34,876 nucleotides of DNA, taken from the NCBI GenBank assembly GCA_020442425.1, contig JAGRKB010000009.1, forward strand, positions 1-34,876, in the 5' to 3' direction. Shown here piece by piece: positions 9,492 to 34,876 of this stretch. Position 1 is the first letter of the stretch. Each line of letters opens with the position of its first letter. Position numbers and translations under genes: made by a program. Source of the DNA: Alphaproteobacteria bacterium. GTDB taxonomy: Bacteria; Pseudomonadota; Alphaproteobacteria; Micavibrionales; Micavibrionaceae. The notes below the pieces were generated by a model. That model saw only the letters and a program-made list of their open reading frames with translations. It made no database searches and was not told where the DNA came from.

Positions 9492-9980
9492 TTATTGTCT
9501 GTTTAAGAACAGGTTTAACTGGGTTTCCGTTTGGCGCGCTAAATCACGTAATGCGTTTTCTCTGGCTGTGTTTTCTGCAACGCGGGTTGCAAATTCACTT
9601 TTGAGAACGTTATAGCTGGTAACTGCCTGTAAATCACGGAGCAGAACATCTTTTCCGGTATGGTCGGTTAAGATCATGCGTGTTTTCAGTCGGAGCTGGG
9701 CGCGAGTGGCCTCAGAAGATTTTGTAATCGCCAGCTCTTTATCTGATTCATGAATTTTTTCTATGGTCAGTCGATATTGGGTCTGGGATGGTTTTCCATC
9801 CGAATGAAGGCGGTCGATCAATTCGTTTCTTAGAAATTGTCCTTCGCGATCAGGAATAATGGCAATAGAGACGGGAGCAGAGGTCGATCCGGCGTCATTG
9901 CTGAATTTGCCGTGAACGGGGTGGAATCCGCACGCCGAAAGCGTGAGAGAAATCAGGAAAAGGGGTAAAAATTTGATCAT
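9492..9980 (-). CDS. lptE: LPS-assembly lipoprotein LptE
   Basis: LptE plugs the LptD barrel and helps insert lipopolysaccharide in the outer leaflet of the outer membrane. The 162-residue product has a short signal peptide with lipobox LSAC and the lipidated Cys at residue 17, directly followed by GFHPVHG, the hallmark start of alphaproteobacterial LptE. The rest shows alternating strands (VSIAIIPDREGQFLRNELID, ARAQLRLKTRMILTDHTGKD) and a C-terminal helix. It is followed closely by holA. Upstream, a separate small gene on the plus strand breaks the usual link with leuS. It implies that the organism makes LPS. Confidence 0.9.
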   Translation of the reverse strand: MIKFLPLFLISLTLSACGFHPVHGKFSNDAGSTSAPVSIAIIPDREGQFLRNELIDRLHSDGKPSQTQYRLTIEKIHESDKELAITKSSEATRAQLRLKTRMILTDHTGKDVLLRDLQAVTSYNVLKSEFATRVAENTARENALRDLARQTETQLNLFLNRQ

Positions 9981-10047
9981 GGGAGCAAGGTAGCGTATTT
10001 TTTGATTTGTTGAAAGTTAGTCCTGCAAATCAAATAAATAATTTATT

Positions 10048-10076
10048 TTGCATAATCCATCGCTTTGTGATATCCT
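10048..10076 (+). promoter_or_regulatory. Promoter of the 45-residue gene
   Basis: TTGCAT and TATCCT are separated by 17 bp, 44 bp before a start codon with a consensus ribosome-binding site. Confidence 0.55.
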
Positions 10077-10119
10077 CTGGAAATTAGTTATAACGGATTT
10101 GAGTTGTTTGAGGTGAAAT

Positions 10120-10257
10120 ATGAGTAACGGAATTAGCATGTTAAAATTAGAATTTGGCCAAAATGCTCGTCAAATGGGCGCTGGTGTTTTGAAAGATGCA
10201 AAAAAATATAATCAAGTAGATACTAATCAAGGTTTTGATTATCGACCAAGAAAGTAG
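10120..10257 (+). CDS. Small basic protein of 45 residues, unknown
   Basis: This short gene has every signal of a real one. A promoter lies at 10048-10076, a consensus Shine-Dalgarno GAGGTGA sits 4 bp before the ATG, and an intrinsic terminator begins 5 bp after the TAG stop. The product starts MSNGISMLKLEFGQNARQMG and ends NQGFDYRPRK. It is hydrophilic and basic, with one likely amphipathic helix (residues 7-30), no cysteine and no membrane segment. It lies between lptE and leuS on the opposite strand to both. No family is recognised. A peptide acting on RNA, membranes or a partner protein is possible but not shown. Confidence 0.7.
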   Translation: MSNGISMLKLEFGQNARQMGAGVLKDAKKYNQVDTNQGFDYRPRK

Positions 10258-10261
10258 CAAG

Positions 10262-10291
10262 AAAAAACGGCCGATAGGCCGTTTAATTTTT
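10262..10291. terminator. Bidirectional intrinsic terminator
   Basis: The stem AAACGGCC / GGCCGTTT with loop GATA has an A-tract on the left and a T-rich tract on the right. It serves the 45-residue gene rightward and leuS leftward, so leuS and lptE are probably transcribed separately. Confidence 0.85.
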
Positions 10292-10292
10292 G

Positions 10293-10347
10293 TGTGCGTT
10301 TATGTGCCTTATCTGTGCGTTTATGTGCCTTATCTATGTGCCTTATC
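10293..10347. repeat. 21-bp tandem repeat at the 3' end of leuS
   Basis: Two exact copies of a 21-bp unit (10293-10313 and 10314-10334) containing TATGTGCCTTATC are followed by a third partial copy of that 13-mer (10335-10347), which runs into the leuS stop codon. The likely origin is slippage at the gene end. Confidence 0.8.
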
Positions 10348-12892
10348 CCGCCACCACGTTGACGATGCGGTTTGGAACCACAATCACTTTTCGGATGGTT
10401 TTTCCTTCTAAGGCGTTTGCGACACTTTCTTCAGAAAGGGCTGCTTTTTCAGCTTCTTCTTTTGCTGTATCAGTCGGGAGTTGAATTGTGGCTTTCAGCT
10501 TGCCGTTAATCTGAATGGCTATGGTGACGGAGTCTGCTACCAAAAACTCAGGATTAACTGTCGGCCAAGCTGTTCTGACCAGCATTTCCTTATGGCCTAG
10601 TTCAGACCACAATTCTTCGGTCAGGTGTGGGGCCATCGGATTAAGTCCGCGGATCATGTATTCAACGGCTTCCTTATAAATGCCCGTGTCCCCTGCTTCA
10701 GGTTTGAAAGCTTCGATTGCGTTATAAAGCTCACGCAATTTGGCAACCGCTTTATTCATATGGAAGGCTTCGATGGACTGGCCGACTGCATGAATGGCTT
10801 GGTGCGCCATTTTTTGCAGTTGAAGAGCTGCTTCACTTGGAGTGCCTTGTGGGGCAGTCAGAATGGTGTCTTTTGCGTCCAGAATAAAGCTATGCAGACG
10901 GTTGATGAAACGCCATGATCCGCCGAGACCTGCCTCTGTCCATTCCAGATCACGATCGGGTGGAGAGTCAGAGAGGATAAACATCCGCGCAGCATCGGCG
11001 CCGTAGCTATCCAGAATGTCTTGCGGGTCAATCGTGTTGCGTTTTGACTTGGACATTTTTTCAACGCGGCCTGCCACGACAGGTTCGTGGTTTCCGGTTG
11101 TCATGACCCAATTGCCGTTTTCGTCTTTCATCACGTCTTTCGGGTACACCCATTTGCCGTCTTTGTCTTTATAGGTCATGTGGTTGATCATGCCTTGGGT
11201 ATAAAGACCTGCGAAGGGTTCGGGGGTATCCATGTATCCGCATTTCGAAAGGGCGCGGGTAAAGAAACGGGAATAAAGCAAGTGCAGAACAGCGTGTTCG
11301 ACACCGCCTATATATTGGTCAACAGGCAGCCAGTATGCTGCTTTGTCTTTTGCAAAGCCGATGCCGTCATTTTTCGGATCAGCATAGCGGGCAAAGTACC
11401 AGCTTGATTCAAAGAAGGTATCGAATGTGTCTGTTTCACGCTGAGCATCTTTTCCACATGTCGGGCATTTGACTTTCTTCCATGTCGGATGGTGGACAAG
11501 CGGGTTGCCCGGTTTATCAAATGTAACATCTGAGGGGAGCTCAACAGGTAATTGGTTTTCAGGGACAGGAACGGTACCGCAATCATCACAATAAATGATC
11601 GGGATCGGGCAACCCCAGTAACGTTGGCGGGAAATTCCCCAATCGCGCAGGCGGTATTGTGTAATACCTGTGCCGCGTCCGATCTCTTCCATTTTCTTTA
11701 TGGCGGCTGCTTTGGACTCTGTCGTGCTCATGCCGTTCATAAAGTCGGAATTGACCATGACGCCGTCATCGACGAATGGAAGTTCAACAGGTGATCCGTC
11801 TTTTGGTGCAACGACTTGAGTGATTTCCAATCCGTATTTGGTCGCAAAATCAAAGTCACGTTGATCGTGTGCGGGGCAGCCGAAAATGGCGCCTGTGCCG
11901 TAATCCATCAGAATAAAGTTTGCAAGATAGAGCGGCAATTTCTTACCTTCGACAAACGGATGGTCAACGAAATGGCCTGTGTTGTATCCGATTTTTTCTG
12001 CCTGTTCGATGGCGGCTTCGGACGTTCCCATCGCTTGGCATTTTTTCACGAAGTCATCGAACCCGTCTTGTCCTGTGCAGAGTTGTTGTGCGAGTGGGTG
12101 ATCGGCAGCCATGGCTGCAAAGGAGGCCCCATAGAGTGTATCGGGGCGTGTGGTGAAAACGTCCAATGTTTCGTTGCTGTCAATTACGTTGAAAGTAAAG
12201 CGGCAGCCTTGGGATTTTCCGATCCAGTTTTCCTGCATGATGCGGACTTTTTCAGGCCAGCGATCTAGTCCTTTAATTGCTTCCAGAAGTTCTTCAGCGT
12301 AGTCGGTGATTTTTAAAGACCATTGGTTGAGTTTTTTGCGCTCAACTGGTGCGTCTGTGCGCCAGCCTTTGCCGTCAATCACTTGTTCGTTGGCAAGAAC
12401 TGTGTGATCGACAGGGTCCCAGTTGACCATCATTTCCTTGCGGTATGCGAGGCCATTTTTCAGGAAATCCAAAAACATTTTCTGTTCGTGCTTGTAGTAC
12501 TCAGGCAAGCAGGTTGTGACTTCACGGTCCCAGTCAATGGAGAGGCCCATTTGTTTCAACTGGATTTTCATCGCAACGATGTTTTCCAGTGTCCAGTCTT
12601 TCGGGTGTGCACCGCGTTCCAGGGCTGCGTTTTCAGCAGGCAATCCGAATGCGTCCCAGCCCATCGGGTGCAGAACATTGTATCCTTGAGCGGTTCTGTA
12701 TCGTGCGACAACGTCCCCTAGGGAGTAGTTACGGACATGGCCCATGTGGATGCGGCCGGACGGATAGGGAAACATTTCGAGGACGTAATATTTCTTCTTT
12801 GAAGAATCTTCGGTGACGTGGAAAACGTTTTCATCGTCCCATTTTTTACGCCATTTTTCTTCCGTTTCACGAATATTGTACCGCTCAGCCAT
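10343..12892 (-). CDS. leuS: Leucyl-tRNA synthetase
   Basis: This class I synthetase charges tRNA-Leu in the cytoplasm and edits mischarged products. From the ATG at 12892 it is 849 residues, starting MAERYNIRETEEKW; this start has a GAGGA ribosome site and matches the family, whereas an in-frame ATG 21 codons earlier gives an unusual N-terminus. The class I HIGH motif is HMGH near residues 49-52, and KMSKS occurs as EKMSKSKRNTIDPQD near 620. Between them lies the CP1 editing domain (TTRPDTLYGASF, with the GTGAIFGCPAHDQRDFDFA region). The zinc-type cysteine pairs CDDCG and CPTCG are present. The C-terminal anticodon-binding and tail domains are complete. Confidence 0.97.
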   Translation of the reverse strand: MAERYNIRETEEKWRKKWDDENVFHVTEDSSKKKYYVLEMFPYPSGRIHMGHVRNYSLGDVVARYRTAQGYNVLHPMGWDAFGLPAENAALERGAHPKDWTLENIVAMKIQLKQMGLSIDWDREVTTCLPEYYKHEQKMFLDFLKNGLAYRKEMMVNWDPVDHTVLANEQVIDGKGWRTDAPVERKKLNQWSLKITDYAEELLEAIKGLDRWPEKVRIMQENWIGKSQGCRFTFNVIDSNETLDVFTTRPDTLYGASFAAMAADHPLAQQLCTGQDGFDDFVKKCQAMGTSEAAIEQAEKIGYNTGHFVDHPFVEGKKLPLYLANFILMDYGTGAIFGCPAHDQRDFDFATKYGLEITQVVAPKDGSPVELPFVDDGVMVNSDFMNGMSTTESKAAAIKKMEEIGRGTGITQYRLRDWGISRQRYWGCPIPIIYCDDCGTVPVPENQLPVELPSDVTFDKPGNPLVHHPTWKKVKCPTCGKDAQRETDTFDTFFESSWYFARYADPKNDGIGFAKDKAAYWLPVDQYIGGVEHAVLHLLYSRFFTRALSKCGYMDTPEPFAGLYTQGMINHMTYKDKDGKWVYPKDVMKDENGNWVMTTGNHEPVVAGRVEKMSKSKRNTIDPQDILDSYGADAARMFILSDSPPDRDLEWTEAGLGGSWRFINRLHSFILDAKDTILTAPQGTPSEAALQLQKMAHQAIHAVGQSIEAFHMNKAVAKLRELYNAIEAFKPEAGDTGIYKEAVEYMIRGLNPMAPHLTEELWSELGHKEMLVRTAWPTVNPEFLVADSVTIAIQINGKLKATIQLPTDTAKEEAEKAALSEESVANALEGKTIRKVIVVPNRIVNVVAG

Positions 12893-12970
12893 TTTATTGT
12901 CCTCATTTTGCTGTGAAGGACAATACAGGTAGCATAGAAAATCCCTGTTTTTCAATGGCTTTGGGTAAAA

Positions 12971-21207: not shown

Positions 21208-21981
21208 ATGACAAATCAACCTTCCAAGCCTGCGAGTCCTCGTAAAATGCGTCCGTCCTCGGCGCAAGCGGGAGGTGCTAAATCGGCGGCGAATAAACCT
21301 TCCCCAGTCCCCAAGGGTAAGGTTGATAGTAAGGAAGAAGCTCAAAAAGCCGAAGTGGAACTACTGAGAAGTGTTGGCTCTGTTATTATTCGAAACGAGT
21401 TTTATCGGGACGGGTATCGCAGTATTTTGAGAATTGCAGTTATTGAAGCCATTATCATTTTGGCTTTGATTGGCGCTATGTATTTTATTATCGAAGTGCA
21501 TCAGCCTGAAAATCGCTATTTTGCTACTACCGAGGATGGGCGGCTGATTCCGGCTACGGCTCTAAATGATCCCAACTTGAGTGTTCCGGCTTTGATGTCT
21601 TGGAGTGCTCAGGCTGCGACAGAGGTTATGACGTTTGGTTTCAACGATTACAAACGCCGTTTGCAAGATTCGTCCCGTAATTTTACACGGACAGGGTGGG
21701 CTAGCTTTTCAAAAGCATTGGAAAGATCCCGTATCATTGAGATGGTTGAAGATAACCAGCAAGTTGTGACAGCTACGCCGTCCAGCGCTCCGATTCTGAT
21801 TGATGAGGGGGTTAATGCCTATGGGGTTTATCAATGGGAAGTTGATGTTCCTTTGGATGTTACCTATCAGTCCGGATCTGCTGTTCGCTCTGATAAACTT
21901 AATGTGAAACTCATCGTTGTTCGTGTGCCTAAGCTTGAAAGCCCTAACGGGGTTGCTATCGAGCAGTGGTTGGCGCAATAA
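21208..21981 (+). CDS. DotI/IcmL-family type IVB secretion protein (DotJ position)
   Basis: DotI is a bitopic inner-membrane protein of the Dot/Icm secretion complex, structurally similar to VirB8. The 257-residue product has a Pro/Ser/Lys-rich cytoplasmic tail of about 50 residues, a transmembrane helix at about 74-96 and a periplasmic domain of about 155 residues with the family core SWSAQAATEVMTFGFNDYKR. It is the first gene of the locus, where Legionella has the truncated homologue icmM/dotJ, but here the periplasmic domain is complete. It is about half identical to the next gene, 17 bp downstream. It probably forms a hetero-oligomer with that paralogue, as DotI and DotJ do. Confidence 0.88.
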   Translation: MTNQPSKPASPRKMRPSSAQAGGAKSAANKPSPVPKGKVDSKEEAQKAEVELLRSVGSVIIRNEFYRDGYRSILRIAVIEAIIILALIGAMYFIIEVHQPENRYFATTEDGRLIPATALNDPNLSVPALMSWSAQAATEVMTFGFNDYKRRLQDSSRNFTRTGWASFSKALERSRIIEMVEDNQQVVTATPSSAPILIDEGVNAYGVYQWEVDVPLDVTYQSGSAVRSDKLNVKLIVVRVPKLESPNGVAIEQWLAQ

Positions 21982-21998
21982 ATTTTTGAGGAACTTTT

Positions 21999-22688
21999 AT
22001 GGAATCTCCTGCTGACAGCATAAACAAGACGGATCAAGTTTTGCCTGATGCTCAGGAAAAAGAAACTGAAATTCGTCAGCATATTAAGTCCGGTATCGGG
22101 AGAATGCATTTTTATCAGGGTAGTTACAGAACTATTCTGAAAATAGCCGTTGGCGAGGCAATGTTTATCTTGCTGCTGATGGCTGTGATGTTTTTTATCA
22201 TTAATACCCACCGCCCAGAAGATCGTTACTATATCCAGTCTACAGATGGTGAATTGATTGAAATGGAGCCTTTGTATGAGCCTAACTTGAGTGTTAAGGC
22301 TATTACCTCCTGGAGCGCGCAGGCGGCAACAGAAGTTATGACATTTGGCCTCAACGATTATCGGCGTCGTCTTCAAGAGGCATCGAGAAACTTTACTCCA
22401 CTGGGTTGGAAAAGCTTTAATGCCGCTTTGGAGCGTATGAAAGTCCTTGAGAATGTTGAGAAAAATCAGCAAGTTCGCAGTGCTGCACCTGCCGGACCTG
22501 CCATTCTTATCGGGCAAGGATATATCAAAGGGCGTTATGAATGGCTGGTTCAGGTTCCGTTGGTCATAACATATCAGGCGCAGGCGGCTGTCAGCTCTGA
22601 AAGGTTGTGGATTACAATGACGCTGGTTCTGGTTGATCAAGGCGATGGTACAAGTGCTGTCGGTATTGAGAAATGGATTTCGCAGTAG
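21999..22688 (+). CDS. dotI: Type IVB secretion protein DotI/IcmL
   Basis: This second DotI paralogue has 229 residues, close to the Legionella DotI size (about 212). Order: a polar N-terminus, a transmembrane helix at about 47-69 and a periplasmic VirB8-like domain with NLSVKAITSWSAQAATEVMT and LNDYRRRLQEASRNFTPLGW. It has a GAGGAA ribosome site. Compared with its neighbour it lacks the long Lys/Pro-rich tail and differs in the strand region before ITYQAQAAVS. It is followed by a 150-bp palindrome and then dotH, so it may end a first transcription unit. Confidence 0.9.
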   Translation: MESPADSINKTDQVLPDAQEKETEIRQHIKSGIGRMHFYQGSYRTILKIAVGEAMFILLLMAVMFFIINTHRPEDRYYIQSTDGELIEMEPLYEPNLSVKAITSWSAQAATEVMTFGLNDYRRRLQEASRNFTPLGWKSFNAALERMKVLENVEKNQQVRSAAPAGPAILIGQGYIKGRYEWLVQVPLVITYQAQAAVSSERLWITMTLVLVDQGDGTSAVGIEKWISQ

Positions 22689-22717
22689 CTATTTCCAGAG
22701 TTCTGTTTGTATCGGAT

Positions 22718-22867
22718 TATAGTCATTCTTCTTAAGAATAGGGCACATCTGCGAATGAAGCCGTTTTTTCAAAAACCTCCTCAAAGTACTGCTATGTACG
22801 TTGTCGTCGGCTTTTGAAAAAGCCGGTCATTCTCGATCGGCGTCCTATTCTTAATAAAAACGACTAT
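22718..22867. repeat. 150-bp nested palindrome inside the secretion locus
   Basis: The ends are inverted repeats (ATAGTCATTCTTCTTAAGAA against TTCTTAATAAAAACGACTAT, mismatches allowed). Inner arms pair GAATGA..TTTTTTCAAAA with TTTTGAAAAA..GGTCATTC, and the centre is AGTAC-tgcta-TGTAC. The whole segment can form one long hairpin or cruciform. The ATAGTC ends and the CTCCT..GTCGTC flanks of the central hairpin recall the elements at 4501 and 19308. It is noncoding. It may be a mobile palindrome, or a terminator or RNA-stability element between dotI and dotH. Confidence 0.75.
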
Positions 22868-22896
22868 GATTCCTTCTATTTTTGAATTTTTCATGG

Positions 22897-22925
22897 TTGA
22901 GGGGGCTGATTAAACTGGATATTCT
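22897..22925 (+). promoter_or_regulatory. Candidate promoter for dotH-dotG-dotF
   Basis: TTGAGG and TATTCT are separated by 17 bp, about 95 bp before the dotH ATG. The 326-bp gap between dotI and dotH holds this and the palindrome; nothing else was seen in it. Confidence 0.35.
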
Positions 22926-23020
22926 ATTTTACAAATGTATTATGGTGTTCGGCCATATGAGATTCTTCCTCTCTTTTGGTTGTGTAATGACCGTATGGGT
23001 GACCTAATTTCGGGGTGTTT

Positions 23021-24166
23021 ATGGAACATAATTTTGTTTTCTTGAATTCTAATCGCCAAGCTTTTTGTCGAGGTTTTCTGTTGGGTTGCCTTGGTTTTGC
23101 AACTTTTGTCTCTTTTCCCTTTGTATCAGGAGCTCAGGCTCAGGACGCAGGGCTTCAGTTGGATCAGGGTATTCCTCCTTCAATGCTGCAGGCTGCGAAT
23201 CAACCACCAGTTCTGGAAGGTGGTAATGCGGGTGATCCCCCAAGTCTGGCTGAAGTTTTAGGTATGGCGGATGAGTCAGGGGCACAAGACACAGATCTTT
23301 CTGGTGATAGTCTTGGTATGAACGATCTTCCGGTTGAGCCTGTTCGAACTCAAGAAGATGCCGCTCGTGAAGAACGCGGAGAGGCATTTCAGGGCGCAGT
23401 AGACAGTTTGATGCCTTTAAAGCCAGCAGAAATTCGTCGGATGCTTGAGCTTTATGATCAGACATCTCAAGCGGTTGAAACACCAATTTATCCAAATCCC
23501 GAGCCTGAATCTTCTTTCGTTCAAGCTTCTTTGGAGCCTGGGGCAAAGCCCGTAATGATTAAGACCGCTGTTGGTAATGTTACTACAATGAGTATTGTTG
23601 ATGCGACCGGGCAGCCTTGGCCAATTCAGGACATGACTTGGGCCGGAGATTTTCAGGTTGAGCAGCCTGAAGCCGGTACGCACATGGTCCGCATTACTCC
23701 ACAGTCCCATTTCGCTCAGGGAAATATTTCTATGCGGTTGGTTGGGTTAAATCCGCCAGTCATTTTTACCTTGAGAACAGAGCGTAAAACAGTCCATGTC
23801 CGTTTGGATGTTCAAATTCCTGAGGTCGGTCCTCAGGGCGTTCTTCCTCCTGTTGTTACACCTATTTCAATTAAAGCCGGAGACGAGGATCTTGCAAAAG
23901 TATTGATTGGCACTCCTTCTGCTGCCGGTATGACAAAGATGAGTGTTGAGGGTGTTGATGGACGTACTTCAGCGTTCTCGAAAGGTGGGCTGATGTATGT
24001 TCGCACGCCTTATACACTTTTATCTCCGGCTTGGACAAAATCTGTCCAATCTGCTGACGGGATGCATGTTTATGCTTTACAGACAACACCGGTTATCCTT
24101 CTTTCCGATAAGGGAAGAATGGTGCGTGCGTATCTTACTTCTACGGAGCTAGCAAATGGCCAATAA
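23021..24166 (+). CDS. dotH: Type IVB secretion protein DotH/IcmK
   Basis: DotH is a core outer-membrane/periplasmic component of the Dot/Icm machine. From the ATG at 23021 it is 381 residues (Legionella IcmK is about 360). It has a signal peptide ending near AQAQ (residue about 40), a Gln/Asp/Pro-rich linker (to about 130), and a helix with LMPLKPAEIRRMLELYDQTS, a strong IcmK-family signature. The beta-rich C-terminal half follows, containing MSIVDATGQPWPIQDMTW and GNISMRLVGLNPPVIFTL. The latter resembles VirB9/TraN-type beta domains. An in-frame GTG 6 bp upstream is not needed. It overlaps dotG by 11 bp. Confidence 0.93.
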   Translation: MEHNFVFLNSNRQAFCRGFLLGCLGFATFVSFPFVSGAQAQDAGLQLDQGIPPSMLQAANQPPVLEGGNAGDPPSLAEVLGMADESGAQDTDLSGDSLGMNDLPVEPVRTQEDAAREERGEAFQGAVDSLMPLKPAEIRRMLELYDQTSQAVETPIYPNPEPESSFVQASLEPGAKPVMIKTAVGNVTTMSIVDATGQPWPIQDMTWAGDFQVEQPEAGTHMVRITPQSHFAQGNISMRLVGLNPPVIFTLRTERKTVHVRLDVQIPEVGPQGVLPPVVTPISIKAGDEDLAKVLIGTPSAAGMTKMSVEGVDGRTSAFSKGGLMYVRTPYTLLSPAWTKSVQSADGMHVYALQTTPVILLSDKGRMVRAYLTSTELANGQ

Positions 24167-25673
24167 TGATTTAGAAAATGACGATTTCGAGCCTGACTTC
24201 GACCAAGCAGAGGATTTTGGCGAATTTGGTGGTGATGCTCAGAAGCCTACTATAGGAAATGCTCTTTCCGGATCTCCGATGTTAAAAGTTGCAATGATTG
24301 GGGCCGCAATTCTGGTTGTGGTCGTTGCAATCGCTTTGTTCGGTGGTGAAGAAAAAGAATTGCCTGGATCTCGTGTTGATGCCGGTGCTCCTGATTTAAA
24401 GCAAACTCCCGGTAAGGAAGAGTTGACACCAATGATGCGCGGCGCGATGGAAGAGCATAACCAGCAAGTTCTTGAAGAAGCGTTGAAACAAGGGACGAGT
24501 GCTATTCCTACTCCAATCGATCCGCCAAAAGTTTTGTTGGGTGTTCCCGAGGGAGAGGCCGCAACGGAAGATCCTCTCGTTCGTTGGAAAAGGCTTCAAG
24601 AAGAGCGTTTGAGATTGCAGCGTGAGCAAGAGCAGTTCTCTAATCAGGCTCAGACAGATCCGGAGCGTGACACGCGAGTTATGAACTTGCAGCAAGCTAT
24701 GATGAACCAAGTAACGAACATTATGGGTGAGCAAGAGAACGGCGAGATCATGAAGAATATCAAAGTGTATACTGTTGATGTTCGTTCTTCCGGCTCGCAA
24801 GGAGGGGGCTCTTCTCAAGTTTCAGGTTTGATGGGCGGACTTCAGGGGGCTTCAGCAACGGGTGCTGTCGATCCGCAAGGGCAAGCTGTTGCTCTTGATC
24901 CTGCTAAAGTGATCGTTCCTGCTGGTGAAATCGAGTATGCCCAACTTTTGATGGAAGCTAATTCCGATGTGCCTGGCCCTATTGTAGCTATGGTTGTTTC
25001 TGGCCCGTTTAATGGTTCTAAAGTTTTGGGTAGTTTTCAGCGCAAGGAAGAGTATTTGATTTTACAGTTCAATACTCTTGTTAGCAAAGCTGGGCATTCA
25101 ATCCCTATTAATGCCATTGCGGTTGATCCTGATACGACGCTGGGTGCGATGGCGACCGATGTTGATCATAGATATTGGCAGCGTGTTGTTTTGCCAGCTG
25201 CGGTTAGCTTTATAGAAGGTATGGGGAATGCTATTGCCGAGAGCGGTTCTACAACTGTAACTGTTGAGGGTGGCGATTCCACAGTTTCTCAAGAGAATAA
25301 TGATCTTGATACTGAGCAGGAATTGGCAACAGCGGCCTCTGAAGCTGCCGACAAAATCGGAGAGATTCTGGATGAAGAAGCTGATGTTGAAATTCTGGTG
25401 CGCGTGAAAGCCGGAACTCCTATGGGCTTACTTTTCACGAAAGGTGTCACAGATCAGGATGTTGAGTCTGCGGCTCTAGGTCGTGGGGCTGCTGCAAATA
25501 GTAATGCTGCTCAAGCTCAAAATCCGTACGCCGTGAATTCTAATTCTTCTAGCCCTATGGGATTTTTACAAAATTCTATGCAAGGGCAAATGCAATTACA
25601 GCAACAGGGAATTAACTTTCAAGCGGGAGTTCCCGGGGCTCAAGTCTCTTATAGTAACGGACTGTCCCAATAA
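24156..25673 (+). CDS. dotG: Type IVB secretion protein DotG/IcmE, compact form
   Basis: DotG spans from inner membrane to outer membrane and forms the central channel with a VirB10-like C-terminal domain. The 505-residue product has an acidic N-terminus, a transmembrane helix at about 43-63, a Pro/Glu linker, a coiled-coil stretch (about 140-200, LQEERLRLQREQEQFSNQAQ) and the VirB10-type domain (IVPAGEIEYAQLLMEANSDV to MGLLFTKGVTDQDVES). Legionella DotG is about 1050 residues because of a long degenerate pentapeptide-repeat region; this one has none and is close to plasmid R64 TraO in size. A Gln/Asn-rich tail follows the core domain. Confidence 0.93.
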   Translation: MANNDLENDDFEPDFDQAEDFGEFGGDAQKPTIGNALSGSPMLKVAMIGAAILVVVVAIALFGGEEKELPGSRVDAGAPDLKQTPGKEELTPMMRGAMEEHNQQVLEEALKQGTSAIPTPIDPPKVLLGVPEGEAATEDPLVRWKRLQEERLRLQREQEQFSNQAQTDPERDTRVMNLQQAMMNQVTNIMGEQENGEIMKNIKVYTVDVRSSGSQGGGSSQVSGLMGGLQGASATGAVDPQGQAVALDPAKVIVPAGEIEYAQLLMEANSDVPGPIVAMVVSGPFNGSKVLGSFQRKEEYLILQFNTLVSKAGHSIPINAIAVDPDTTLGAMATDVDHRYWQRVVLPAAVSFIEGMGNAIAESGSTTVTVEGGDSTVSQENNDLDTEQELATAASEAADKIGEILDEEADVEILVRVKAGTPMGLLFTKGVTDQDVESAALGRGAAANSNAAQAQNPYAVNSNSSSPMGFLQNSMQGQMQLQQQGINFQAGVPGAQVSYSNGLSQ

Positions 25674-25690
25674 TTTGAGGAGTGACATAT

Positions 25691-26935
25691 ATGTCTGATA
25701 AGAATTTGGAAGATCAATATGAGGATGAATTTTCATCTGATGATGCAGAATATTTTGATGAGGATTTGGGTGATGAATCTTCTTTTGATGGAATAGAGGA
25801 TGAGAATTGGGATGATCTTGAGGATCGAGAATCCTATCGTGATCCAGCTCCTCCTAAGAAGAAAAAAAGCTCTTTTTTGACAATTGTTATTGTTCTTGTT
25901 GTTGTTCTGGGTGGAGGGTTTCTTCTTCTCGGATTGATGGGGGGTGGGGCGCAGGAAGTGCCTGCTTCTGAAGAAGAGGTGGTCACTTCCGGAGTTATTG
26001 ATCAAGCCCCTGTAAATGTTGATTCAAATAATGTTGAAGATTTGCCCGCTCCACAAGAACAGGTTCTAACTGGCGCAGAATCTGGGACACAGGCAGATGC
26101 TACCGTTCAAAATGACCCACAGGATATTTCCCCTCTGGATTTGGGCGGAGATGTTGTTTCGTTGACACCGGAACCTGATGTTTCATCTACACAAGAGCTT
26201 CCGGCTTTACCGGAGCTTACAGAAGGCTTGATGACAGAGCCAGTTGAATTGGTAGCTGATGTTCCTTCTTTGGAGCCTGTTCCTGATACTGCTGAGGTGT
26301 TGTCTCAAAATGCTGGAGAAGTTGTTGTCCCTGATATTTCTCCGGAACCGAGATCTTCGGATTTCCCATCTGTTGATATGATTAAACGTCCGGAAGCTGT
26401 TGCCCAAGTTTCTGAAAGTGACGCTCCTGCTATTCCGGATCTAAATATTCCTGAAGTGACCGATTCTGCTCAAGCTGATGTTCAGCAGGCTCTACAAGAT
26501 AATGCTAGCTTGATGAATGATGAAATGAGAAAAGCAGTCGATCAAATTGCGAATTTGCAAGCCAGCGTTGAGGATTATCAAGAGCAGGAAGCTTCTTTGA
26601 AGCAGAAGATTTTTGAACTCGAGGCCAAGTTGGCGCGTGCGCAAGAGCGTGATGTGGCTACTACGCGTTCTGTTCAAGTTTCCCGATCCTCTAGAATAGA
26701 TGAACCTCGTGCCAATATATCTACGGTTTCTAGTGTTTCACGTCCTGTTAAGACTGTTTCTTGGGTCTTGAAGGGGGCTCAGTCCGGAAAAGCTTTGATT
26801 TCTAAAGAAGGTCAACGTGATATCATGTCTGTTTCTGTTGGTGAAACGGTTGCCGGACTGGGAACAATTCTCTCTATTGAGCAAGGCGCTCAGGGATGGG
26901 TTGTTCAGGGTACTAAAGGCAGTGTTCGGGAATAA
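25691..26935 (+). CDS. dotF: Type IVB secretion protein DotF/IcmG-like
   Basis: This inner-membrane component of the core complex starts at the ATG at 25691 with GAGGAG 9 bp upstream, giving 414 residues (Legionella DotF is about 270). The first 50 residues are about half Asp/Glu. A Lys run and a transmembrane helix at about 61-83 follow, then 170 residues of Pro/Glu/Val/Asp-rich, probably disordered linker. Next is a coiled coil (MNDEMRKAVDQIANLQASVE onward, about 275-320) and a C-terminal strand domain with SVSVGETVAGLGTILSIEQG, which resembles the secretin-type HR fold of PilP/IcmG. Position after dotG supports the call; overall similarity is low outside the end. Confidence 0.8.
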   Translation: MSDKNLEDQYEDEFSSDDAEYFDEDLGDESSFDGIEDENWDDLEDRESYRDPAPPKKKKSSFLTIVIVLVVVLGGGFLLLGLMGGGAQEVPASEEEVVTSGVIDQAPVNVDSNNVEDLPAPQEQVLTGAESGTQADATVQNDPQDISPLDLGGDVVSLTPEPDVSSTQELPALPELTEGLMTEPVELVADVPSLEPVPDTAEVLSQNAGEVVVPDISPEPRSSDFPSVDMIKRPEAVAQVSESDAPAIPDLNIPEVTDSAQADVQQALQDNASLMNDEMRKAVDQIANLQASVEDYQEQEASLKQKIFELEAKLARAQERDVATTRSVQVSRSSRIDEPRANISTVSSVSRPVKTVSWVLKGAQSGKALISKEGQRDIMSVSVGETVAGLGTILSIEQGAQGWVVQGTKGSVRE

Positions 26936-26963
26936 GCATTTATTGTCTAGGATTGATTCATTA

Positions 26964-26990
26964 AATCCCTGATATTATTCAGGGATTTTC
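26964..26990 (+). terminator. Intrinsic terminator after dotF
   Basis: The stem AATCCCTGA / TCAGGGATT is followed by TTCTCT, 29 bp after the dotF stop. It ends the dotH-G-F unit. Confidence 0.7.
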
Positions 26991-27032
26991 TCTATTTATG
27001 ACATTCTTAACTTTGTAATAAGTTATTTTAGG

Positions 27033-27150
27033 TATAGTGTTCTATGGGGAGTAACATAGTTAATTCTGCATTTTCATGGATTGGTGGGCAGAATCTTGTG
27101 TTTTTGTCAGTTTTATGGTTCAATAATAGGTATAGAACCGTATAAACGGT
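27033..27150 (+). promoter_or_regulatory. Structured leader and promoter region of dotE
   Basis: The 220-bp gap before dotE has a TATAGT box at 27033-27038 and three small inverted repeats: CTATG/CATAG (27042-27059), ATTCTGC/GCAGAAT (27063-27094) and ACCGT/ACGGT (27137-27150). The last ends about 12 bp before the start codon, near the GGGGTG ribosome site. Confidence 0.4.
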
Positions 27151-27162
27151 CGGGGTGTGTAT

Positions 27163-28434
27163 ATGAAAAAAATATTCTCTAGATTTAACAGCATGTTAAA
27201 CCGTAACACTGTCAGGTTCTTAGCCCTGTTGGTGGTTTTTTCTTCTGTTTCGATGTTTTCTACGCAGGCTCAAGCTCAGGGGCTTGGAAATGCTGTGAGC
27301 AATGCCTTAAGTGGTGTTGGAAATGCTGTGAGTAATGCGGCGAGTGGTATTGGAAATGCTGTGAGTGGTATTGGAAGTGCTGTGAGTAATGCTGTCTCTG
27401 GGGCTTTGAGTGCCCTGACATCTGCTGCTGCCGCTGCACTTTCAGGAGTTTTATCCGCTGTTAGCTCTATGGTCTCGACTGGCGTGCAAGCTTTTTTCGC
27501 GAACGTCAATACTTTTATTACCACTTCTATTAGTAATCTCTTCTCATGGCTTGGTGGGGCGCTGGGTTGTGGTGGTATGGTCAATGCCGGAGGAGGAACT
27601 GTCGGGGATGTTATCTGTAATGTTATTATTGCATCAGATAATTTGCCAGGCTTCGTTTCTGCTGTTGCCTATATGATGGGTATGATTATGGCAGTTAGCG
27701 CTCTTATCAAATTGAAAGATCATGTTGAAAGCCCTACTCAACATCCGATTTCCGCGTCTCTTAAACGCTTTGTAGCCGGTGGTGCTTTATTTATGCTTCC
27801 GATGGTTACTGAAGCCACAGAGACTCTTATTGCAGGTACAGGTATTAGTGGTGGTATGGGGACGGGATTGAACGGGAAAGCCTCGGGATTTGGTTTGGAT
27901 GCTATGATGGTTGCTTTGATGGTTGATATTTTCAAACCGGTGGGCGCATTATTGGGTGGTTTTGGCTATCTGGCTGGTATGGTTCTGACCGTTATCGGTA
28001 TTAGCCGCTTGCTCAAGACTGCTCAGGATGGGCCTTCAGGTCCAACAGGCTTGGGAACTATCATGACGTTTGTTTTGGCAGGTGTCTTGTTTACCATGGA
28101 TGAGTTGATGACTGCATTTACCGGATCTTTGTTTAATATGAATGTCATCGAAACTTCGGCAGTGTTGTCTGTGCCGATTGACGGCGGCGTTGTCGATGAT
28201 CACGTTCTTGCTGTAATCAGTTCTATTCTGCTGTTTATGATGCTTGTCGGGTGGATTAGCTTTATACGCGGGTTCTTTATTTTGCGCGATGTGGCTGAAG
28301 GAAAAGGTCAAGCATCATTGATGGCGGCAATTACTCATATCATGGGTGGAGCGATTGCTGTGAACTTGGGTCCATTTATGAATGCCGTACAAAGTACACT
28401 TGGTTTGACAAGTGTGGGGGTTATCTTTAGTTAG
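27163..28434 (+). CDS. dotE: DotE/IcmC-like membrane protein with three DotP-like units
   Basis: This inner-membrane protein of the type IVB system has 423 residues against about 190 in Legionella IcmC. It has a signal peptide to about residue 37, then a Gly/Ala/Ser/Asn repeat helix (about 40-105, units such as GVGNAVSNAAS). Three related two-helix units follow. Unit 1, at about 161-224, has LPGFVSAVAYMMGMI and VAGGALFMLP and is closest to DotP; unit 2, at about 260-322, has GYLAGMVLTVIGISRLL and FVLAGVLFTMDEL; unit 3, at about 349-411, has LVGWISFIRGFFILRD and MGGAIAVNLGPFMNAV. Identity rests on unit 1 similarity and on its place between dotF and dotP. Confidence 0.8.
   Translation: MKKIFSRFNSMLNRNTVRFLALLVVFSSVSMFSTQAQAQGLGNAVSNALSGVGNAVSNAASGIGNAVSGIGSAVSNAVSGALSALTSAAAAALSGVLSAVSSMVSTGVQAFFANVNTFITTSISNLFSWLGGALGCGGMVNAGGGTVGDVICNVIIASDNLPGFVSAVAYMMGMIMAVSALIKLKDHVESPTQHPISASLKRFVAGGALFMLPMVTEATETLIAGTGISGGMGTGLNGKASGFGLDAMMVALMVDIFKPVGALLGGFGYLAGMVLTVIGISRLLKTAQDGPSGPTGLGTIMTFVLAGVLFTMDELMTAFTGSLFNMNVIETSAVLSVPIDGGVVDDHVLAVISSILLFMMLVGWISFIRGFFILRDVAEGKGQASLMAAITHIMGGAIAVNLGPFMNAVQSTLGLTSVGVIFS
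27281..27465 (+). repeat. In-frame direct repeats in dotE (GNAVS units)
   Basis: Repeated DNA of the type GGAAATGCTGTGAG(C/T), three clear copies and several degenerate ones, encodes a run of Gly-x-Gly-Asn-Ala-Val-Ser-Asn-Ala units just after the signal peptide of dotE. Confidence 0.85.
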
Positions 28435-28488
28435 ATAATATTATATAATAAACTTTGATTATTTACTGAAGCATTAGAGGAGGAAACT

Positions 28489-28890
28489 ATGCTGAAACAA
28501 AAACTGAATAGACTTAGTGCAATGATTGGTGCCGCTTTTGTAATGGGAACCTTTATGAGTTCTGATGCGAGTGCAGCTCCAGCAAAGACTTTTAACGATG
28601 TTGCAAATAACATTATTGGCGGTATTTCAAGCTTACCGGGCTTTCTATCTGCTGTTTCCTATATGATGGGGATGTTGTTTGCTGTTCTTGGTATTTTGAA
28701 GATCAAAGATCACGTTGAAAACCCAACTCAGATTCACCTGAAAGACGGTGCTATCCGTTTGGCTGTTGGTGGCGGTCTGTTTATGATCCCAATTATTACC
28801 GAGTCCATGCAGACCTTGGTTGGTACGGGTACAATGACTAAAGCTGCTGAAGTTAGTAAAATCGGTACTGCTACTAATTTGGCGAAGTAA
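28489..28890 (+). CDS. dotP: DotP/IcmD-family protein, copy 1
   Basis: This small inner-membrane component of the Dot/Icm system has 133 residues, as in Legionella IcmD. It has a consensus ribosome site (GAGGAGG), a signal-like hydrophobic N-terminus ending near SAAP (residues 1-31), a first membrane helix SLPGFLSAVSYMMGMLFAVL, a conserved loop KIKDHVENPTQIHLKDG and a second helix LAVGGGLFMIPIITESMQTL. It is followed by its own terminator. It is the homologue of unit 1 of the preceding DotE. Confidence 0.9.
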   Translation: MLKQKLNRLSAMIGAAFVMGTFMSSDASAAPAKTFNDVANNIIGGISSLPGFLSAVSYMMGMLFAVLGILKIKDHVENPTQIHLKDGAIRLAVGGGLFMIPIITESMQTLVGTGTMTKAAEVSKIGTATNLAK

Positions 28891-28917
28891 TTTTACTTTC
28901 TATCATTATGAAATTTT

Positions 28918-28947
28918 AAACAGACCCTTTTGGGGTCTGTTTTTTTG
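28918..28947 (+). terminator. Intrinsic terminator after dotP copy 1
   Basis: The stem AAACAGACCC / GGGTCTGTTT is followed by a T-tract. The same hairpin is found after copy 2. Confidence 0.88.
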
Positions 28948-29045
28948 GGAAGTGATGGAAGTGCCTTGATTTTATTTCTGTCTTTTGACTTAGAAGTATT
29001 GTAGAATGGTATATGGTCATAATTGAAGCATTAGAGGAGGAAACT

Positions 29046-29447
29046 ATGCTGAAACAAAAACTGAATAGACTTAGTGCAATGATTGGTGCCGCTTTTGTAA
29101 TGGGAACTCTTATATGTTCTGATGCAAATGCTGCCCCAACGAAGACTTTTAACAACGTTGCTGATAATCTAATTAACGGTATTTCAAGCTTACCGGGTTT
29201 TCTATCGGCTGTTTCCTATATGATGGGGATGTTGTTTGCTGTTCTTGGTATTTTGAAGATCAAAGATCACGTTGAAAACCCAACTCAGATTCACCTGAAA
29301 GACGGTGCTATCCGCTTGGCTGTTGGAGGCGGTCTGTTTATGATCCCGATTATTACCGAGTCCATGCAGACCTTGGTTGGTGCGGGTACAATGACTAAAG
29401 CTGCTGAAGTTAGTAAAATCGGTACTGCTACTAATTTGGCGAAGTAA
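29046..29447 (+). CDS. dotP: DotP/IcmD-family protein, copy 2
   Basis: This 133-residue paralogue aligns without gaps to copy 1 and differs at ten positions, nine of them between residues 22 and 44, i.e. around the signal peptide end and the start of the mature chain. Both membrane helices and the KIKDHVENPTQ loop are identical. The ATG at 29046 has the same GAGGAGG site as copy 1; an in-frame ATG at 29013 lies upstream of that site and is not the start. It has its own terminator. The two copies may assemble together or be expressed differently. Confidence 0.9.
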   Translation: MLKQKLNRLSAMIGAAFVMGTLICSDANAAPTKTFNNVADNLINGISSLPGFLSAVSYMMGMLFAVLGILKIKDHVENPTQIHLKDGAIRLAVGGGLFMIPIITESMQTLVGAGTMTKAAEVSKIGTATNLAK

Positions 29448-29474
29448 TTTTACTTTCTATCATTATGAAATTTC

Positions 29475-29502
29475 AAACAGACCCTTTTGGGGTCTGTTTT
29501 TT
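29475..29502 (+). terminator. Intrinsic terminator after dotP copy 2
   Basis: It has the same stem as after copy 1 (AAACAGACCC / GGGTCTGTTT with a T-tract). dotN then needs read-through or its own promoter. Confidence 0.88.
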
Positions 29503-29584
29503 AGTTTTGTGAAATTCTTTTGTTTTATTGGTTGATCGGTTATGATAAGCCACTCAATTGATGCAATTCTGAAAGTGGGTGCTT

Positions 29585-30286
29585 ATGAATAACTTGCCTT
29601 TGGCTTTGGGCATTTCTCGCCCAGATGGAAAAACCAAGCGGATTAAATTACCGCAGGGAAGTCCTAAGATTATTACTCCGGAAATTAAAAAGGCTGTCTT
29701 TGAGAGGGACGGGTATTCTTGCCAGTGTTGTGGATTTCAGGCTCAAAAGTATCAGGAAGTTCATTTTCTGGATCAAAATCCCCAGAATGTCACAATGGAC
29801 AATATGGCAACAGTTTGTATCTTTTGCCATCAGTGCTTTAATTTGGATTTAGTTTGTGAGATGCGTTCCGGCGTATTGATCTGGCTTCCGGAGATTTCAC
29901 AAGTTGATTTGCACCATATCATGCGTTCTGTCTATGTTGCCCGTATTTCACAGGGCCCAATGGCAGAAGCTGCTCGTGCTACGCTGGATGCGCTTATGGC
30001 TCGTCGTGAAGAAGCTAGAAATCGTATAGATACGGATGATCCTTTTGTTCTGGCCACTGTTCTTAAAGACTTTCTGACATCACGCTATTATGCCGATAGG
30101 GAAAATAGGCTGGACGGTGTTCGATTGATGCCACTTGATCGTCGTCTTATTCGCGAAGCTGATCTTGAGTTTAACCAGTTTCCTCAAATCCTAGCTTATT
30201 GGCGCTCCAAAGAGGGGCCATTCGGGGGGCGGGCACCTACATTGTGGCTTAATCTTTATAAGGATGCTCTTCAAAAGGCAAGTTAG
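29585..30286 (+). CDS. dotN: Type IVB secretion protein DotN/IcmJ
   Basis: DotN is a zinc-binding cytoplasmic protein that belongs to the DotL-DotM coupling complex in Legionella and helps recruit substrates. From the ATG at 29585 it is 233 residues (Legionella about 208); a GTG 6 bp earlier is possible. The zinc site is visible as C46-x-x-C49 (with C48 between) in GYSCQCCGF and C78-x-x-C81 with C84 in VCIFCHQC, in an HNH-like arrangement; HNH catalytic residues are not evident. The C-terminal half is helical and ends in FGGRAPTLWLNLYKDAL, a family-type ending. The gap to dotO is 81 bp. Confidence 0.9.
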   Translation: MNNLPLALGISRPDGKTKRIKLPQGSPKIITPEIKKAVFERDGYSCQCCGFQAQKYQEVHFLDQNPQNVTMDNMATVCIFCHQCFNLDLVCEMRSGVLIWLPEISQVDLHHIMRSVYVARISQGPMAEAARATLDALMARREEARNRIDTDDPFVLATVLKDFLTSRYYADRENRLDGVRLMPLDRRLIREADLEFNQFPQILAYWRSKEGPFGGRAPTLWLNLYKDALQKAS

Positions 30287-30367
30287 TCGCTCTCTAACTC
30301 GAATTCTGTATTTTCAATGTGTGTTTTTCTGGTTAAACTGACCAGGATCTAACTCTGTGATTCTCTG

Positions 30368-33367
30368 ATGAAATTTATCGAAAAAGTCCTTGCCCCGTTC
30401 CAAATCGCTCTTCGACAATCTATCGAGAGTTTTATTCGTATTGAGACGGCTGAAAACGAGTATACGCTGGCTTCAAGCGATGGATCGCTTGTCAGTTATT
30501 TCAAAGTGGATGGGTCACGTCAGATCATCGGGGAGGAAGAGTATAATTTTCTTGTTGATGCTGCGACTGTTAAGCTGGGTTCCAAGTTCGACCGACAAGG
30601 TCATGCAATGCAAATTTACTTTACGCGTGATCCTAACCGTGTTCGTTCGCATTTGTCAGGACAGATGGAGGCCTCTAATGTTACGGCGGACAACATCGGC
30701 TTGGAAGTCCATGACTTGCTGGATGAACGCTTAAAGAACTTATCCAGCATTTTGAGTTTTGAAGAATGCTATTTTGTTCTTTGGACACGTGCTTCCGTTA
30801 TGAGTAAAAGCGAGAATCAGAGGGCTCGTGAAGATAAGCAAGCACAGATCAAGAACTGGGTGAATGCTCCTTATGGGCAGAATCCTTTGGCAGCAATTGA
30901 TTCTCTGCGCACGCGCCATAAAAGTTATGTGACCTCCATTGAGCAGGCTTTGAATGAATTGGGTATTCGTGCCGAGTTGATGGAAGTCCATGATGCTTTA
31001 GGCGCTATACGGAATAATATGTTTCCGAGTAAGGCTCATAATGAATGGAGAGCCTGCTTGCCGGGAGATCCTATTCCTCCGCGGGCACCGACATCGCGTA
31101 TTGATCTTTCCGATATTATATGGCCGCCACTCCGAACGCAGTTATCTGTCGGAGATGCGCGTTTGACCGGAGGGCCTGTCGTTCAAATTGATGATTTGAA
31201 TTGGGCTGGAGCGGATATGACTTTGGGGCCAATGGAGGCAACACCATTTCCGGCTCTTTTGAACAGGCTTTATGATGCAAAAGTTCCATTCCGTATCTCT
31301 TTTCTGATTGAGGGAGGTGGGGCTGAGTCTTCCCAGTTTCGCTCATTTGTTGCCACTCTTATGAGTGTTACCAACTCTTTAAATAAACAGATCAAATATT
31401 CTCTGGAAGGATTGAATGTTATGGCTCGTAGCGAGCCAGTGGTTAAGTTGCGTGTTTCTTTTGCGACATGGGCTCCCAAATCTTCCCCTAACCTTATTCT
31501 GGATCGATTGTCTATTCTGATGCAATCCATTGAGAGTTGGGGATATGCTCAGGTGAGTGATGTGTCCGGTGACCCTCTTGATTGCATTATGTCTTCGGCC
31601 ATGGGAATTCATTGTGCCGGAACGGCTCCTGCTGCTATTGCTCCGATGCGCGAAGTCATGAAATTGGTTCCGTGGCAGAGGCCATCTTCTCCTTTTTCCC
31701 ATGGTGCGATTATGCTTCGTACCCCTGACGGAAAATCATGGCCCTATCAGACCGGAACCAACCTAACAACAACTTGGTTTGACTTGATCTTTGCACAGCC
31801 GGGTGCTGGTAAATCTGTTTTGATGAACACTCTCAACCTTGGGACCATTCTGTCTCCGGGGCTTAGTAAGTTGCCGTTCGTTGCCGTTATCGATATTGGC
31901 CCCTCTTCTTCGGGGCTTGTCTCTCTGGTTAAAGAATCTTTGCCTATTATGCGCCAAAATGAAGCGGCTTACTATCGTCTTCAGATGTCCAGACAATTTG
32001 CGATTAATCCTTTTGATACGCAGCTTGGGTGCCGTCAGCCATTGATGGATGAACGCAGTTATCTGGTTGAATTGCTTGTTCTTCTCTCGACGCCTCCTGG
32101 ACATGACAAGCCATATGACGGTATTCAGCAGCTGGCAGGGCTAGTCGTTGATGAAATGTTCCGTTGGCGGGATGATTCTTCGGCTAATGCTGAGCCTCGT
32201 CCGTTCTTGCCGCGTCTTGATGCTGATATTGATGAACTTATTCAAAAGCACAATATTCATTTGCCCACGGATCCTTATTGGTGGGATGTAGTTGATCGTT
32301 TGTTTGAGCTGGGCTTGGTTGAAGAGGCTATGGTCGCCCAGCGCTATGCAGTTCCAACTCTGGGGGATGCTATTACAGCTTCCCGTCGTCCCCAAATTCG
32401 AACTTTGTTGGAAGAAACATCTGTTGGTTTTAGTACAGAATCGGTTATTAATGCTTTTGAACGTATGATTACTTCAGCTATACGCGAATATCCTATTTTG
32501 TCTTCTGTTACCCAGTTTGAAATTTCGGGAGCGCGTGTTTGCTCTCTTGATTTGATGGATGTGTCTCCACAAGGTGATGATACGGCGGATCGCCAAACCT
32601 CTATCATGTATATGTTGGCGCGTCATGCTCTGGTTAGGAACTGGTGGGTTGGCCCTGAATCTTTACAGTTTATTCCAGAGAAATACAGATATTATCATGA
32701 GTCCAAGTTGCAGGATTTGGCCGAGACACCAAAGCGACTTTGTTATGACGAGTTTCATAGAACCAGTTCTTCATCGTCTGTACGTTCGCAGGTAATTCGG
32801 GACGTACGGGAAGGTCGTAAACGCGGCGTTCAAATTGTTTTGGCTTCCCAGCTTTTGGACGATTTTGATGATGATATGGTTGATTTGGCCACAGGTGTCT
32901 GGGTTCTGGGTACTGCTGTTTCTGATAAGGCTGTTGATAATGTTCGTGATCGTTTCGGCTTATCGTCCACAGCTCGGAATATCATTCGCTATAAGCTGAC
33001 GGGTCCTCGAGCTGGTGGAGCTCCGGCTTTGCTAATTTTGGGTACGAATGAAGGGCGCTATGAACAGCATCTTATCAATACTTTGGGGCCAATTGAGTTG
33101 TGGGCTTTTGCGACGTCCGTAGAAGATGTCTTAGTTCGTAATCAGCTTTACTCTAAATATGGGGCTGGGCGTGCACGCCAAATTTTGGCGGCTGCCTTTC
33201 CAAGCGGAAGTGCTCGTAACGAGATCAAACGCCGTATTTTGATGAAATCCAAAGAAGGAGGCGATTCGCGGTCTGCAGCTTTGACGGCTGTGATTGATGA
33301 AATTGTTGAAGAGTTATCTGCTTCCCAGACAAAGAAAAATTTACCCGATGAAAATGAGGGAGAATAG
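30368..33367 (+). CDS. dotO: Type IVB secretion ATPase DotO/IcmB (VirB4-like)
   Basis: DotO is the large cytoplasmic ATPase at the base of the Dot/Icm apparatus. Its 999 residues match the Legionella length (about 1009). The N-terminal half (to about 470) is the membrane-complex-binding domain. The RecA-like half has Walker A QPGAGKSVLMNTLNLG at about 475-490 and Walker B LCYDEFHRTS at about 790, with VLASQLLDDFDDDMVDLATG following, typical of VirB4/TraU proteins. The C-terminus is a polar helical tail (KSKEGGDSRSAALTAVIDEI). The next gene starts 2 bp after its stop, so both are probably cotranslated. Confidence 0.95.
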   Translation: MKFIEKVLAPFQIALRQSIESFIRIETAENEYTLASSDGSLVSYFKVDGSRQIIGEEEYNFLVDAATVKLGSKFDRQGHAMQIYFTRDPNRVRSHLSGQMEASNVTADNIGLEVHDLLDERLKNLSSILSFEECYFVLWTRASVMSKSENQRAREDKQAQIKNWVNAPYGQNPLAAIDSLRTRHKSYVTSIEQALNELGIRAELMEVHDALGAIRNNMFPSKAHNEWRACLPGDPIPPRAPTSRIDLSDIIWPPLRTQLSVGDARLTGGPVVQIDDLNWAGADMTLGPMEATPFPALLNRLYDAKVPFRISFLIEGGGAESSQFRSFVATLMSVTNSLNKQIKYSLEGLNVMARSEPVVKLRVSFATWAPKSSPNLILDRLSILMQSIESWGYAQVSDVSGDPLDCIMSSAMGIHCAGTAPAAIAPMREVMKLVPWQRPSSPFSHGAIMLRTPDGKSWPYQTGTNLTTTWFDLIFAQPGAGKSVLMNTLNLGTILSPGLSKLPFVAVIDIGPSSSGLVSLVKESLPIMRQNEAAYYRLQMSRQFAINPFDTQLGCRQPLMDERSYLVELLVLLSTPPGHDKPYDGIQQLAGLVVDEMFRWRDDSSANAEPRPFLPRLDADIDELIQKHNIHLPTDPYWWDVVDRLFELGLVEEAMVAQRYAVPTLGDAITASRRPQIRTLLEETSVGFSTESVINAFERMITSAIREYPILSSVTQFEISGARVCSLDLMDVSPQGDDTADRQTSIMYMLARHALVRNWWVGPESLQFIPEKYRYYHESKLQDLAETPKRLCYDEFHRTSSSSSVRSQVIRDVREGRKRGVQIVLASQLLDDFDDDMVDLATGVWVLGTAVSDKAVDNVRDRFGLSSTARNIIRYKLTGPRAGGAPALLILGTNEGRYEQHLINTLGPIELWAFATSVEDVLVRNQLYSKYGAGRARQILAAAFPSGSARNEIKRRILMKSKEGGDSRSAALTAVIDEIVEELSASQTKKNLPDENEGE

Positions 33368-34603: not shown

Positions 34604-34876
34604 TTATTCTGCAGCCACTGGAGCGATAACAGCTGTTACTGGAGCTGCTGCTGCTTTTTTCTTGGCTGCTGGCTTTTTCTTAGCAACTGTTTTCTTGGCT
34701 GCTGGCTTTTTAGCTGCTGTTTTTTTCACTGCAGGTTTTTTCGCTGCTGGCTTTTTGGCTGCTGCTTTTTTTACTGCTGGTTTTTTGGCCACTGCTTTTT
34801 TCGCTGCTGGCTTTTTAGCCGCAGGTTTTTTAGCTGCTGCTTTTTTCACTGCAGGTTTTTTAGCTGCTGGCTTTTT
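34604..34876 (-). CDS. Lys/Ala-rich histone H1-like protein, C-terminal part
   Basis: The frame is open to the window edge, so the gene start is outside. The visible 90 residues are repeats of Ala-Ala-Lys-Lys-Pro with Ala/Val/Thr substitutions, ending in a neutral APVTAVIAPVAAE tail. This composition matches the C-terminal domain of histone H1 and bacterial H1-like nucleoid proteins (Hc1, AlgP and similar), which bind and compact DNA through lysine charge. The DNA is itself a run of imperfect repeats, prone to slippage and copy-number variation. A GTG at 34849 is in frame but is unlikely to be the true start. Confidence 0.75.
   Translation of the reverse strand, partial: KKPAAKKPAVKKAAAKKPAAKKPAAKKAVAKKPAVKKAAAKKPAAKKPAVKKTAAKKPAAKKTVAKKKPAAKKKAAAAPVTAVIAPVAAE

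Follow-up and report, generated by a model that had tools for sequence, protein, structure and literature searches.

A candidate orphan small gene in a lineage-specific segment between leuS and lptE of an alphaproteobacterial genome

The window analysed in this work, a whole stretch of 34,876 nucleotides, contains between leuS and lptE a 45-codon open frame (P0001) with a ribosome site ahead of it and a hairpin behind it, located in a segment specific to this lineage and lacking relatives in what was searched. With a probability of about 0.6, we consider P0001 to be a translated, recently gained, species- or lineage-restricted orphan small gene, which is convergent with leuS and shares its terminator; this reading ranks as the most likely, followed by that of a chance frame. 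We infer transcription, translation and recent gain of the frame, in a scheme in which a leuS-lptE spacer of about 60 bp would have given way in this lineage to a segment of roughly 340 bp with a higher A+T content than the genome. The new segment would carry the 45-codon frame, oriented towards leuS and provided with a strong ribosome site, and transcription of P0001 would stop at a bidirectional terminator, by which leuS transcription is terminated as well. The features of the region are as follows:

9492-9980, minus strand: lptE, divergent neighbour of P0001, with a Pfam LptE match above cut-off
10004-10342, no strand: segment confined to this genome, of about 340 bp where the closest relatives have about 60 bp, its edges being approximate
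10048-10076, plus strand: promoter proposed in the preliminary description, TTGCAT-17-TATCCT, with 7/12 consensus matches, not above chance
10065-10094, plus strand: alternative promoter-like pair TTGTGA-18-TATAAC, with 9/12 matches, which chance also reaches
10110-10116, plus strand: ribosome site GAGGTGA, a 7-base match to the presumed anti-SD complement
10120-10257, plus strand: 45-codon frame P0001, ATG to TAG, best of the six frames in amino-acid likeness
10265-10284, no strand: hairpin of a bidirectional intrinsic terminator, with a T-run on both sides, longer on the minus strand (leuS side)
10293-10347, no strand: 21-bp tandem repeat, two full copies and a partial one of 13 bp, immediately at the stop codon of leuS
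10343-12898, minus strand: presumed leuS, convergent neighbour of P0001, with its ATG at 12898

Results

Frame and ribosome site

The preliminary description had reported a complete gene in perfect order, including a promoter with a 17-bp spacer, a GAGGTGA ribosome site, a 45-codon frame and a terminator. Both the frame and the ribosome site were read as described: the ATG frame at 10120-10257 on the plus strand specifies a product of 45 aa, MSNGISMLKLEFGQNARQMGAGVLKDAKKYNQVDTNQGFDYRPRK, and GAGGTGA is found at 10110-10116 with its GAGG core 6 bases from the ATG, as scored against a sequence that we take to be the anti-SD complement. A start codon, a good ribosome site and an open frame, the combination sought for a translated small protein gene, were accordingly found together at this locus. 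The length of the frame is by itself at chance level: when the 362-bp stretch 9981-10342 was dinucleotide-shuffled 5000 times, 2505 of the shuffles contained a frame of at least 45 codons (ATG-started in 1419). Conversely, an ATG frame together with a ribosome site this good (7 matching bases) was obtained in 3 of 5000 shuffles. In a survey of the intergenic ATG frames of 25-90 codons within 172 kb of this genome (n=230), six reached a ribosome score of at least 6, and two of them a score of 7, P0001 being among the latter; the other frame scoring 7 presumably corresponds to a Flp-type pilin, one of the six resembles what we take to be ribosomal protein L35, and three of the five frames other than P0001 resemble chance.

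Amino-acid likeness was highest for the P0001 frame (0.04, with -0.07 to -0.28 in the other five frames) and was equalled in 4 of 3000 stop-free shuffles. The codon score of P0001 was reached by 3 of 2000 shuffles; however, the same value, -0.074, was obtained for the +1 frame, leaving the two frames unseparated, and just 36 of 348 pieces of real genes scored below it. Three-base periodicity was not significant, a value as high arising in 858 of 5000 shuffles. The ribosome site and the protein-like composition of the right frame make a small protein gene likelier, whereas the lack of conservation, a promoter at chance level, and weak periodicity and codon score count against it.

Promoter and upstream region

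The claimed promoter could not be told apart from chance. Scoring was based on a sigma-70 type consensus, and the 139-bp upstream region holds five 17-spacer sites of the 7/12 type of TTGCAT-17-TATCCT, as compared with a shuffle mean of 4.4; the best site with a spacer of 16-18 in the same region has 9/12 matches, a value reached by 344 of 1000 shuffles. Likewise, the promoter scan listed none for the P0001 gene, and this sigma-70 type scan yielded no promoter of its own above chance. A 29-bp palindrome at 10024-10052 was considered as an operator and rejected, since 19 of 500 shuffles contain one as good and the genome has a single occurrence of it. On the minus strand, which is that of lptE, 9981-10119 folds with a z of -2.3 (1 of 200 shuffles as good, several folds having been tried), and this region upstream of lptE could be a structured leader.

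Terminator and RNA fold

The hairpin at 10265-10284 has 8 pairs and is terminator-like on either strand, and the surrounding 10255-10295 has a folding energy of -17.7 kcal/mol (mean of the shuffles, -5.4), which none of 200 shuffles equalled. The terminator of the preliminary description is thus present as an 8-pair hairpin with a T-rich tail, but it is bidirectional and serves leuS as well. In three congeners (G010, G005 and G002), leuS is followed by a different terminator-like hairpin, as judged by eye. Since the hairpin faces leuS and these congeners also have a leuS terminator at this place, it does not constitute independent evidence for P0001. Altogether, the claim of a complete gene in perfect order was upheld insofar as a small protein gene is favoured, but not as to the promoter, which is at chance level, nor to a terminator of its own, which is shared with leuS. 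The refuting outcome named in the preliminary description, a broken frame beside a retained promoter and terminator, was not encountered.

The RNA fold of 10077-10291 was unremarkable (z -1.15, equalled by 23 of 200 shuffles). Rfam gave no match at gathering score at the P0001 locus, and one sub-threshold match on the P0001 strand corresponded to isrF (E 0.017, 16.4 bits, the cut-off being 40); neither a known RNA family nor an unusually stable fold, by which a small RNA gene would be recognised, was found at this locus.

The leuS-lptE junction

The 362-bp stretch between leuS and lptE (9981-10342) has 35% G+C, as compared with 46% for the genome as sampled over 138 kb. The segment is absent from G010, the closest relative (LeuS 97% identical), which has about 60 bp in its place; the leuS-lptE gap there is about 80 bases, including a block, AATACGCTAC, located ahead of lptE and common to this genome, G010, G005 and G002. 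In this genome, about 340 bp extend from the leuS stop to that block. A comparison of the segment DNA with 11 genomes of the genus yielded, apart from the segment itself, 7 matches, none longer than 50 bases, and six of these (all but L046) fall in or beside unrelated genes. The 19-base core of the 21-bp repeat unit was found nowhere else in the genome, and a pattern scan of viral contigs with the repeat returned 14 pattern matches.

The junction could be read in 8 of 10 congeners, the contigs of G001 and G007 ending inside leuS. In five of the eight (G010, G005, G002, G006 and G008) lptE adjoins leuS; in G004 the two are separated by a pair of larger genes, and G003 and G009 have lptE on another contig, away from leuS. 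The earlier statement that the small gene splits a normally linked leuS-lptE pair is consequently valid against five of the eight readable loci of the genus, but not against G004, G003 and G009. Among the 30 best family loci, our own included, at least 13 show an LptE-like start no further than 1.5 kb from leuS, a lower bound given by a regular-expression motif search. These varied arrangements indicate that the junction is tolerant of change, and the insertion is unremarkable for its place. In 28 of the other 29 family loci, the 700 bp following leuS hold no convergent small frame with a ribosome score of at least 6, these 29 being the best-matching loci among the 98 of 104 genomes with a match; the remaining locus has a 29-codon convergent frame 520 bp away.

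Two further observations concern these congeners. The genes interposed in G004 are located at 285-3811 of L036 (reverse-complement orientation), one of them being sensor-like by eye. Furthermore, G004 and G006 have a second LeuRS-like gene (L017, L018), 43% identical to the LeuS of the window over the matched part.

Search for relatives

P0001 is present as a single copy in its own genome, as determined by peptide search. At the E limits used, and with the caveat that distant relatives of a short peptide can escape sequence search, no match was obtained in any of the nested genome sets: 10 of 10 congeners, 103 of 103 other genomes of the family (own genome alone of 104) and 141 of 141 others of the order (own genome alone of 142) were negative. 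With this absence in close relatives, P0001 would qualify as a taxonomically restricted gene. Pfam, PHROGs, NCBIfam, PADLOC and the PDB held no match, the comparison of the protein with plasmids gave none, and that with phages gave 14 records, all at E 1 or worse.

Several weak matches were set aside. In a class sample of 385, one genome (G358) was matched besides our own at E 0.0082, inside a 317-codon stop-to-stop frame, and this was taken as chance; four others in a relatives search of 95 genomes (E 0.17-0.67), weaker than the G358 match, were presumed to be chance too. A degenerate peptide pattern matched genome contigs once, within a 130-codon stop-to-stop frame in a Desulfuromonadales record, and viral contigs twice, within 16-codon frames; these were all taken as chance.

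The peptide

The description of the product as basic was borne out, with 8 K+R against 4 D+E, a pI of 9.87 and a GRAVY of -0.94. AlphaFold2 without alignment predicted, at low confidence, one helix at residues 7-34 (mean pLDDT 66, pTM 0.23). The product of P0001 would be a short, soluble, basic and largely helical, or helix-prone, peptide without a membrane segment. Small hydrophobic (type I-like) toxins have a membrane-spanning hydrophobic segment, and such an identity was rejected on account of the GRAVY value and of a top 18-residue mean hydrophobicity of 0.42 among the windows printed. No link of P0001 with toxins, defence families or regulators emerged, and its likeliest role is that of a dispensable accessory peptide, which we favour over a conserved core function.

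Discussion

The reading of P0001 as a translated orphan small gene has its main competitor, a less probable one that we nonetheless take seriously, in a chance frame within untranslated AT-rich spacer DNA, with the hairpin serving as terminator of leuS only. A frame of this length is commonplace in shuffled DNA, the promoter is at chance level and relatives were not found; moreover, the terminator-like hairpins that follow leuS in G010, G005 and G002 imply that the hairpin needs no small gene. What such a frame would leave to coincidence is the joint presence of frame and ribosome site, seen in so few shuffles, and a protein-like composition confined to the P0001 frame. That same ribosome site would require another explanation if the locus encoded a small non-coding RNA, about 200 nt long, with its end at the hairpin and the frame contained in it incidentally. 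We regard this as quite improbable: the stretch is bounded by a terminator, has space for a promoter and gave the isrF match, but it folds no more stably than its shuffles and has no Rfam match at gathering score.

Lineage specificity and AT-richness of the segment would also be expected from remains of a phage gene or mobile element left at a tolerant junction, and the same junction houses two other genes in congener G004. This is the least probable of the readings, given that the protein had no match in PHROGs or plasmids and none better than E 1 in phages, that DNA matches are short and weak, that no insertion-sequence ends were seen by eye, and that the two viral-contig matches to the peptide pattern lie in 16-codon frames. 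Returning to the orphan small gene, we give little credence to a more specific version in which P0001 is newly born, a frame in the lineage-specific segment having gained a strong ribosome site and being translated into a functional helical basic peptide; such a gene would have been caught while the unoccupied junction persists in a relative with a 97% identical LeuS.

P0001 is a known kind of thing, comparable with the genes of two studies in bacteria. Taxonomically restricted (orphan) bacterial genes were ranked by Wilson et al. (2007; PMC1824705); like those genes, P0001 is species-restricted, has no homologue and is of uncertain expression when judged from sequence, but unlike them it is a single frame below the usual length cut-offs. 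In Escherichia coli O157:H7 Sakai, intergenic small genes were detected by ribosome profiling, 210 of 465 having no annotated homologues (PMC5597208). P0001 resembles those described there in being an intergenic frame of at least 30 codons that homology does not recognise; they have ribosome footprints, whereas P0001 is known here from sequence alone. If translated, P0001 would be one more unannotated orphan small gene, and would allow a clean comparison with the short, empty junction of near relatives, its origin being traceable given more sequenced strains of the species. As it stands it is ordinary, since bacterial genomes commonly contain such orphan candidates and no particular function is indicated.

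Other features of the window

Type IVB (Dot/Icm-like) secretion genes occupy 21208-33367, with Pfam matches to DotI/IcmL (21999-22685), DotH/IcmK (23015-24163) and a TrbI-like protein (24156-25670); 21208-21981 resembles a putative second copy of DotI. Within this cluster, the adjacent and nearly identical genes at 28489-28890 and 29013-29447 (133 and 144 aa) look like a recent tandem duplication. Finally, a 15/30-bp repeat array at 34650-34876 reaches the contig end.
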